A stretch of DNA of 35,744 bases from Minisyncoccota bacterium. Its GTDB lineage: Bacteria; Patescibacteriota; Minisyncoccia; Phycocordibacterales; UBA9973. Below, in pieces: positions 207 through 35,234 of the stretch. Location: the NCBI GenBank assembly GCA_016649835.1, contig JAENWX010000003.1:1-35744 (forward strand), given 5' to 3'. Both the position numbers and the translations under genes were made by a program. The notes under the pieces are model-generated. The model was given only the letters and a program-made list of their open reading frames with translations. It was not told the origin of the DNA and ran no database searches. Within the stretch, counting starts at the first letter, position 1; the number at the start of each line of letters is the position of its first letter.

Positions 207-257
207 CAAATAATAAAAGCCTCCTTTTAAGGGGGCTTTTATTATTTGCGCGGTCGA
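198..257 (+). terminator. Terminator hairpin of tRNA-Asp, extended into an inverted copy of the tRNA 3' end
   Basis: tcgaccgcgcaaataataaaagcc...ggcttttattatttgcgcggtcga is an inverted repeat that includes the tRNA acceptor strand. Confidence 0.85.
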
Positions 258-463
258 TAAAATGTGAAACATTTTAAGGACTTGAACGCCGGAGCAATAT
301 TTTGACAGTAGTTAAAATGCGAGGCGGTGCCCAGACAAATTTTTGTGTCGACAAAAATTTAGTCGCGGGAAAGATTCCGGTCGACATTCATATTTAGTCG
401 AGGTCAAGAAGCGCGAATGAGTACATTCGCCTACTTGGCACTCGCGCTCCGGTCGATACTCCC
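207..463 (+). repeat. tRNA-3'-flanking hairpin mosaic (Asp locus)
   Basis: Antisense tRNA-Asp pieces (gcgcggtcga, ggacttgaac) interrupted by hairpins taaaatgt-gaa-acatttta and attttgac-agta-gttaaaat; shares ggtgcccagac...agtcgcggg with 26472-26518. Confidence 0.75.
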
Positions 464-25744: not shown

Positions 25745-26056
25745 ATAAGAACGAAAAATCTTTCGAATCTTGCACGCACTAGGTGAGACCGTGAGTACAC
25801 TTTTCGCCTATTACATAGGCAGGTACTTTTCCGCCTATGGCAAGGAAAAGTCTTTCGAATCTTCCTCACGGTTCGATTTACTAATCGCACACGCGAGACC
25901 GTGAATACACTTTTCGGTCCCTACTGGACCAGTACACCTTTTCGTTTCGGTTAACACCGAAAAACGAAAAGCTTTTCGAATCTCGCACGAAAGCCAAGCA
26001 GTTGGCTTTCTCGTCTCCACATATTTAAAAAGCCCTAGCGGGTTTTTTAAATATGC
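25745..26056 (-). repeat. tRNA-3'-flanking hairpin mosaic (Ser-GCT locus)
   Basis: Two units of gaccgtgaRtacacttttcg..[stem]..ttttcg..[stem]..cgaaaagtctttcgaatc; mirrored tRNA end at 26015-26060. Confidence 0.85.
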
Positions 26057-26142
26057 GGAGCCGGCGAGATTCGAACTCGCGAGGGGTTTTATCCCCTGCA
26101 TCTTTAGCAAAGATGTACCTTAGACCACTCGGACACGGCTCC
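26057..26142 (-). tRNA. tRNA-Ser (GCT)
   Basis: Anticodon stem/loop CATCT TTGCTAA AGATG; long variable arm; T-arm GCGAG TTCGAAT CTCGC; acceptor GGAGCCG/CGGCTCC. Confidence 0.95.
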
Positions 26143-26232: not shown

Positions 26233-26319
26233 GGATGAGTGGCCGAGAGGCTTAAGGCAGCGGTTTACTAAACCGCCGTCCCTTTACCGGGACCGTGAGT
26301 TCGAATCTCACCTCATCCG
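26233..26319 (+). tRNA. tRNA-Ser with ACT anticodon
   Basis: GGATGAG-TG-GCC..GGC-A-GCGGT TTACTAA ACCGC-long variable arm-GTGAG TTCGAAT CTCAC-CTCATCC-G; G73 and type II structure indicate Ser. Confidence 0.85.
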
Positions 26320-26368
26320 CATGTTGAAAAAATTGCCCCTATTAAGGGGCTTTTTTCTTATGCGGATG
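26314..26368 (+). terminator. Terminator hairpin of tRNA-Ser(ACT) with mirrored tRNA end
   Basis: catccgcat...gcccc tatta aggggcttttttctt atgcggatg. Confidence 0.85.
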
Positions 26369-26645
26369 CGAAGACGTGAACTGCTCATTTAGTAAAATGA
26401 CCTACTGGGTTCACGTCTGGGTGAGATTCGAACAGCGGAGTCATATTTTGTTAGCAAACAAAATAGACGAGCTGGTGCCCAGACAAAACTTTTTGACGAA
26501 AAAGTTTTAGTCGCGGGCGAAACATGTACTCATGGTCTCGGGAGGAAGATTCGAAAGACTTTTCCTTGCCGTAGACGGAAATACCTCATTTAGTAAAATG
26601 ACCTACTGGGCGCCGCAGTATTGGCGAATCTCACCGCCTCCCCAT
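26321..26645 (+). repeat. tRNA-3'-flanking hairpin mosaic (Ser-ACT locus)
   Basis: Antisense pieces gcggatg, ggtgagattcgaac; hairpins; exact 26 bp repeat ctcatttagtaaaatgacctactggg at 26384-26409 and 26585-26610. Confidence 0.85.
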
Positions 26646-34828: not shown

Positions 34829-34844
34829 GCGGGTGATGTGGCTC

Positions 34845-35234
34845 TAGGACCGCGAGTACGCAGTAGGTCAGTACTGGACCAGTACAAATTTTATGGCGGA
34901 CACTGTCGTCAGGAATAATTTGCTTTTCGTCAAAAGCAAATTTTCACGACCCTCAATCAGTAGATTGACCTACTGGGCGACTCGGCTCGTCAGCCTCCGT
35001 CTTTATTTCTTTTATTTAAAAAGAAATAACCCTACTGGACCAGTACACCTTTTCGAACCATAGACGAGGACCGTGAGTACACTTTTCGGCTACCACGTAG
35101 CCAGGTACTTTTCGCTCCGATATCAATCGGAGAACGAAAAGTCTTTCGAATCCTAGACGCAGGCAAAGCAGTTTGCCTGCTAGGGCGGACCATATTAAAA
35201 AACCACACACTTTTCAGTGTGTGGTTTTTTAATA
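34845..35234 (-). repeat. tRNA-3'-flanking hairpin mosaic (Ile-TAT locus)
   Basis: Shares a 26 nt block ccctactggaccagtacaccttttcg (35030-35055) with 25919-25944; same unit gaccgtgagtacacttttcg...cgaaaagtctttcgaatc; mirrored tRNA end at 35182-35245. Confidence 0.85.

Follow-up and report, generated by a model that had tools for sequence, protein, structure and literature searches.

Most bacterial palindromic repeats are copies of one sequence. MITEs and the palindromic elements of Rickettsia or Wolbachia are non-autonomous, dispersed and hairpin-forming, and integron attC sites are imperfect palindromes that are maintained at the DNA level and have conserved unpaired features. Short palindromic DNA units in intergenic mosaics are also seen in the REP/BIME systems with RAYT (Y1) transposases, as outlined in PMC2817692 and PMC3733652, and tRNA and tmRNA genes are the targets of integrated islands, such as those of Dehalococcoides at ssrA in the outline given in PMC3146451. 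In addition, template switching between nearby inverted repeats creates and repairs perfect hairpins, as summarized in PMC8794818, and homogenizes the arms of inverted repeats, as summarized in PMC8604942.

In the window analyzed here, i.e., the whole 35,744-nt stretch of DNA, contig C21 of a 735-kb genome in 56 contigs, we identified members of an element family in which a conserved core is flanked by arms whose matching tRNA changes from site to site. In a search of Rfam 15, no family except tRNA reached its gathering score. We also found no description in the open literature on CPR, Nomurabacteria or Parcubacteria, a scope that takes in few subscription papers and preprints, so the family is apparently undescribed there.

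Anatomy of the element

The focal locus is a divergent pair of tRNA-Ser genes, each followed by a reversed copy of its own 3' end, and two further flanks in the window, of tRNA-Asp and tRNA-Ile(tat), have a comparable structure. The features are given below, where R1 denotes a covariance model trained on 18 copies found in this genome, which took the place of a first regular expression for cores that was too strict (14 matches).

26055..26142, minus strand: tRNA-Ser(gct), source of the reversed 3'-end copy downstream (ARAGORN; RF00005, 50.4 bits)
26011..26054, minus strand: AT-rich terminator-like palindrome, then an imperfect reversed acceptor, GTGGAGACGA, at 26020-26011 (inverted repeat I1, 24 nt, 88%; DNA fold)
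25989..26010, minus strand: hp1, GAAAGCCAA-CTGC-TTGGCTTTC, a perfect 9-bp stem with a CTGC loop, placed where acceptor and T-stem meet (sequence; family statistics)
25975..25986, minus strand: reversed T-arm (T') GCGAGATTCGAA, 12/12 to tRNA-Ser(gct) (inverted repeat I3, 12 nt, 100%)
25893..25988, minus strand: core of unit 1 of the Ser(gct) flank, with P1, P2 and hp2, hp3, and hp4 (GTG-TATT-CAC) (R1 match, 103.9 bits, E 4e-27)
25783..25867, minus strand: core of unit 2, in tandem, with a GCGATTAGTAAATCGAACCGTGAGGA module before it (R1 match, 76.4 bits)
25745..25776, minus strand: third unit, truncated (CGTGCAAGATTCGAAAGATTTTTCGTTCTT) (direct repeat family D1)
26233..26320, plus strand: tRNA-Ser(act), divergent partner of Ser(gct), with its own reversed flank (tRNA call)
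26360..26432, plus strand: Ser(act) flank with reversed acceptor, an hp1 whose loop holds a 25-nt M5 hairpin (26385-26409), and reversed T-arm (26421-26432, 12/12) (sequence)
26433..26620, plus strand: Ser(act) flank, alternative (type II) core, then a degenerate unit with another M5 (26588-26610) (weak R1 match at 26419-26541)
248..460, plus strand: Asp flank with reversed acceptor, divergent hp1 (TAAAATGT-GAA-ACATTTTA, 258-276), reversed T-arm (278-287) and type II core (sequence; M5-like match at 416-438)
34844..35200, minus strand: Ile(tat) flank with reversed acceptor, hp1, reversed T-arm, core (35065-35158) and more units to 34844 (R1 matches, 96.3 and 25.7 bits)

The palindrome that follows Ser(gct) is a continuation of the tRNA 3' end, and the T-loop insertion and two further units of this flank run to about 25745. 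A perfect sigma-70-type promoter (TTGACA-16-TATAAT) lies upstream of the next gene at 25686-25659 on the minus strand, and the focal array is located between it and the palindrome on the tRNA side. Transcription may read through the palindrome, which contains no more than three G-C pairs and which a terminator scan did not flag. The only listed ORF across the focal flank, of 91 aa, merely runs through the tRNA and the hairpins. Elsewhere in the window, the translations between 7643 and 20979 read as a type IV pilus/competence-like cluster (prepilin peptidase, pilB, pilT, pilC, a pilM-like gene and several pilins).

In a typical flank, the tRNA 3' end is followed by an AT-rich terminator palindrome, which is an optional component, and then by the reversed acceptor strand, hp1 and the reversed T-arm. 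The second half of the flank consists of P2 enclosing hp2, GTACY, hp3 (loop TGTAA or similar), GATAA, hp4 (GTG-TACT-CAC, GCG-TACT-CGC or ATG-TACT-CAT), GGTCC and a T-stem copy in forward orientation, which sometimes extends through the whole acceptor. Units are about 100–200 bp in size, tandem units are frequent and, with few exceptions, the core of the first unit lies 56–80 nt beyond the tRNA. Across copies the loops CTGC, TACT and TGTAA are conserved.

The preliminary description had presented the flanks as antisense acceptor/T-arm mosaics split at comparable points by modular hairpins. All the features it described are in the sequence, among them the T-arm copy of Ser(gct), the hp1 hairpins after Ile, Ser(gct) and Ser(act) and the divergent hp1 after Asp, and the two insertion points agree across loci, the acceptor/T junction for hp1 and the T-loop for the core. 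What it gave as a conserved AACTGCT loop is more aptly described as a CTGC tetraloop on a stem of 9 bp. The shape of hp1 is fixed (9+4+9) and its sequence is not, with 72 distinct perfect stems seen and four different stems at the tmRNA locus of four congeners. In a wider set, arms of exactly 9 bp were present in 54 of 70 distinct perfect hairpins and the CTGC loop in 37 of the 70. The modularity was likewise evident, as cores are interchangeable, hp1 is optional and 25-nt hairpins are inserted in loops. The alternative cores, type II (GGTGCCCAGAC...GTCGCGGGC) and type III (GGGTCGC...TGTGACC), take the place of the main core, with the reversed T-arm on one side and the forward T-arm on the other.

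The 25-nt hairpin M5 (TCATTTAGTAAAATGACCTACTGGG and variants; also TCATTYAGTARAATGACCTACTGGG) has 26 copies in this genome versus none for the reversed pattern, at 26385-26409, 26588-26610 and 34955-34977 of the window and on contigs C14, C18, C27, C35, C40, C43, C47, C48 and C55. About 16 of the 26 have no detected tRNA next to them; those within tRNA flanks are in the loops of hp1, hp3 or hp4. REP palindromes are about 20–40 bp in size and have a GTAG or CGTC tag at the foot. The reverse strand of M5 reads CCCAGTAGG plus a hairpin, with GTAG adjoining the hairpin, a tag that the main core does not have. M5 is a separate dispersed repeat and on this strand looks like a GTAG-tagged REP. The idea that M5 is an insert preferring hairpin loops was set aside as weakly supported, with 9 of 35 copies (26%) between inverted arms of at least 9 bp versus 9.7% of random places. 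On contig C55, loci L410 and L413 have tandem hairpin variants with the tail CTTACGTG near GGGGTCCGACCC...GTCGGACCCC, a nested palindrome mosaic outside tRNA flanks.

Distribution and turnover at tRNA and tmRNA genes

The family is not restricted to the four loci from which it was first described and extends across the genome. Of the 36 tRNA/tmRNA genes, 24 are followed within 450 nt by a copy on the same strand at E ≤ 0.001, and about a third of the tRNAs are without the element. R1 has 54 matches in this genome at E ≤ 0.1. At the stricter threshold, 30 of 47 copies lie downstream of a tRNA or tmRNA, and nine of the other 17 are at contig ends, so that a tRNA would fall outside the contig. 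The structure does not arise by chance, as the genome has 35 matches to the pattern GATTCGAAAGACTTTTC when up to three mismatches are allowed, compared to two matches for a reversed control. The tmRNA gene also carries a copy downstream. Because the T-arm/acceptor end is the only part that tmRNA has in common with tRNAs, it is this end that defines the target.

A covariance-model search found the element in each of the 24 genus genomes and in 48 of 61 relatives, with carriers among Candidatus Nomurabacteria, Yonathbacteria, Taylorbacteria and Kaiserbacteria, and 90 of the 118 aligned copies are downstream of a tRNA or tmRNA. The preliminary description had staked its proposal on such a search recovering further tRNA-adjacent copies, and dozens were recovered. 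In wider samples there was a match in 16 of 384 genomes of the class and nine of 380 of the phylum, which are lower bounds as the stricter filters of large searches drop weak matches. All but one of these genomes belong to the same order of Patescibacteria, to which the element is thus almost confined in these samples. Viral contigs were rejected as carriers, as their nine short pattern matches, none with the anatomy, were judged to be chance.

The reversed T-arm copy is specific to the local tRNA. A perfect reverse complement of 12 T-arm bases was identified in 60 of 195 tRNA flanks, and 11/12 in 23 more, whereas with T-arm segments of other tRNAs these values were reached in 0.1% and 2.5% of trials, respectively. 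The 17-nt tRNA end recurs in forward orientation, with at least 15/17 matching, in 20 of 184 flanks, compared to about 0.24% for the ends of other tRNAs. Most other flanks have a partial forward copy, of the T-stem only, and sense-antisense-sense zigzags of the tRNA end also occur.

The element is gained and lost at orthologous tRNAs, with presence/absence differences among congeners at the Phe, Cys, Pro, Gly, Ile and Asp tRNAs. Clean contrasts between occupied and empty sites are seen at Phe (G018 versus G004), Cys (G004 versus this genome) and Pro (G018 versus G004). At the Phe locus of G018, the insert lies exactly between the tRNA and the terminator and closes with 18 nt copied from the tRNA end. 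Most congeners have a recognizable Ser(gct)/Ser(act) divergent pair, with the mirror at Ser(gct) in G016, G020 and G017, at Ser(act) in G010, G022 and G006, and at neither in G004, G018 and several others; the mirrors that are present differ in their hp1, their core or their tandem arrangement. An empty site in a congener could result from loss, and as the nearest genome has only ~75% DNA identity at the Ser locus, no single insertion event is dated. The nearest relative of a core was at another tRNA of the same genome in 15 cases (6.5 expected) and at the same tRNA of another genome in 15 (3.6 expected), which shows both intragenomic spread and retention at the locus.

This patchiness is as expected of a mobile or fast-turnover element, and to that extent agrees with the earlier suggestion of a possibly mobile, tRNA-parasitic system; mobility itself is inferred, and no mobilizing enzyme was found. 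Two candidate genes were searched for, and neither tracks the presence of the element. Reverse transcriptase (RVT_1), which would accompany a retroelement with a tRNA primer, is found in 28 of 61 genomes and is absent from the element-rich G005, G004, G010 and G033, and Y1_Tnp, which would be expected in genomes with RAYT-mobilized palindromes, is found in 37 of 61, with no match in the element-rich G033, G046, G036 and G023, so both were rejected as drivers. This genome (735 kb) has five RAYT-like Y1 transposase genes (C34:18519, C47:10153, C40:20452, C7:4521 and C56:20471), its relatives have up to six, and neither CCTACTGG nor CCAGTAGG, the M5 core motif, was found near the five.

No tRNA was called upstream of 28 of the 118 copies. 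Many of the 28 have upstream a truncated tRNA/tmRNA 3' end, a deleted tRNA body or a contig edge, and tRNA-less copies are probably mostly tRNA loci broken or displaced by deletions and integrative elements. Three such copies, L039 (G000:C49:1-240), L104 and L108, from three genomes, have a common upstream sequence, GCGAATCC.TTCCCGCAAATT.GTTTCGCAAAACCGAGTC...TTCGAACTTTGTCCAA, which is possibly the end of an integrative element. Another, L196 (G009:C57:5-1039), has a reverse transcriptase gene ~1 kb upstream.

Base pairing of the element stems

The covariation score of the stems was 0.607, compared to 0.162 for shuffled and at most 0.10 for slid alignments. RNA structures tolerate G-U intermediates and not A-C, and a G-U on one strand is an A-C on the other. 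In the acceptor stems of 202 tRNA genes, which served as a control, G-T and A-C pairs numbered 66 and 3, respectively. The corresponding counts were 41:42 and 72:63 in two sets of element stems, 39:31 in hp1 and 14:9 for the mirror against the tRNA, the last being an instance in which G-T is marginally above A-C. Near equality of the two argues against an RNA from either strand. Therefore, our results demonstrate that the pairing is maintained in the DNA itself, which speaks against an RNA that mimics a tRNA. Folding energy alone cannot decide between the two levels, as it is extreme for both (z = -12.7 for the DNA fold of 25886-26080; z -9.5 for the RNA fold, which is stable). Compared with what characterizes noncoding RNA families, the element has covarying stems, lacks a preference for G-U over A-C and matches no described family. 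The balance of G-T and A-C thus provides a simple test for separating DNA-level palindromes from RNA structures, and it matters since strong covariation alone would have classed the element as a new noncoding RNA.

Possible origins and comparison with known systems

On balance, we favor the explanation that these are non-autonomous palindromic DNA elements of tRNA/tmRNA 3' ends whose reversed copies are matched to the local tRNA by template switching. The core must have spread, as it is conserved and without counterpart in the tRNA or terminator, and the arms, which match each tRNA, must have been rewritten after insertion or copied during it. The insertion reaction, the copying by template switching and the absence of a host function are inferred. 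A unit would insert at a tRNA 3' end via DNA recombination or a copying reaction, which could place a direct repeat of ~17 bp of that end, from T-loop to discriminator, beyond the unit. Its T-stem-like arms, being close to the T-arm of the tRNA, would then form foldback DNA during replication, and template switching would rewrite them to the local tRNA, producing the locus-specific mirror. The same switching would hold the pairing of hp1, P2, hp3 and hp4 close to perfect Watson-Crick even as the sequences change, and units would duplicate in tandem, gain smaller hairpins in their loops and decay. Template switching explains in one process why the stems are nearly perfect yet drift and why G-T and A-C are equally frequent.

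The conserved loops go beyond what template switching alone would give and hint at protein recognition or a function. Potentially, the element is part of a new DNA-level system that captures the 3' end of the tRNA or tmRNA it occupies and re-copies it in reverse, via a dedicated enzyme recognizing folded single-stranded DNA with CTGC and TACT loops. We propose this only tentatively. If true, it would be mobile DNA of a new type, targeted to tRNAs, in streamlined genomes where there seems to be little room for parasites.

Rather unlikely, in our assessment, is a folded single-stranded recombination site resembling attC, whose hairpin would be recognized by a recombinase of the host or of an element and which would act as a docking point for integrative elements at tRNAs. 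In its favor are the pairing at the DNA level and the fixed 9+4+9 geometry of hp1 with its conserved loop. In addition, several tRNA-less copies adjoin tRNA/tmRNA 3' fragments, like the far junction of an integrated island, and three copies without a whole tRNA (L193, L195 and L197) are ~2–8 kb from large serine recombinase genes. However, the flanks inspected held no gene cassette array, no recombinase is consistently linked to the element, the element is missing from about a third of tRNAs, and a locus-matched mirror is not a feature of attC.

Purely mutational growth, in which terminator hairpins are extended by repeated template switching that copies the tRNA end, would need no mobile element. 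The mirror does continue the terminator palindrome, the zigzags of the tRNA end are in keeping with such growth and the mechanism is a known one (as outlined in PMC8794818). We nonetheless consider it improbable, because cores with no source in the tRNA or terminator are common to tens of loci in many genomes and something must therefore have spread.

A little less probable still is a structured RNA, either a pre-tRNA trailer that folds on the T-arm to control processing or the opposite-strand mimic of a tRNA 3' half that had been suggested at the outset. The stable fold, the strong covariation and the consistent architecture would suit an RNA, and some units come directly after the tRNA with no terminator between (Phe in G018, Cys in G004). 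Against an RNA of either kind, and leaving the mimic unsupported, are the findings that G-U is not favored over A-C on either strand (72:63 versus 66:3 in tRNAs), that the array in the window is between a terminator-like palindrome and the next promoter, and that many congeners lack the element at the same tRNAs; nor is there an Rfam relative, and the fold would sequester the tRNA 3' half. Foldback chimeras of metagenome assembly or amplification, which might be suspected from a genome in 56 contigs with several contigs ending at arrays, have a negligible probability given that the modules recur in 24 of 24 genus genomes, including the single-contig G018 and a 704-kb contig of G004, and in assemblies from many separate projects.

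The non-autonomous DNA element that we favor has partial likenesses to each of the systems introduced above. Like MITEs and the Rickettsia or Wolbachia palindromes, it is non-autonomous, dispersed and hairpin-forming, and it differs from them in its placement at tRNA 3' ends and its target-matched inverted arms. With attC sites it shares a DNA-level palindrome with conserved unpaired features, whereas its anatomy is tied to the adjacent tRNA and no cassettes were seen in the flanks inspected. The likeness to REP/BIME sequences, as these are outlined in PMC2817692 and PMC3733652, lies in the short palindromic units and intergenic mosaics, in the GTAG beside the M5 hairpin on its reverse strand and in the presence of RAYT-like Y1_Tnp genes (five matches). 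Unlike them, the element cores are linked to the 3' ends of tRNAs and come with a reversed copy matched to the local tRNA, four element-rich genomes (G033, G046, G036 and G023) have no Y1_Tnp match, and no M5 motif lies beside the RAYT-like genes. A tRNA-integrated island has an intact tRNA at one end with a direct repeat of the 3' end of this tRNA at the other, and it encodes an integrase or has cargo. Integrated islands such as those outlined in PMC3146451 have the same target class, and a forward 3'-end copy on the far side is also found in a subset of the elements, which in contrast are 100–200 bp in length, contain no genes or integrase, have an inverted copy and share a core across isoacceptors. 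The template-switch hairpins have the same perfect, fast-changing stems and foldback copies, but those outlined in PMC8794818 are single mutations in RNA genes, whereas here a conserved core is present at dozens of loci. As the arms differ from site to site, one genome, with about two dozen loci, constitutes a natural replicate experiment on how inverted repeats are kept perfect.
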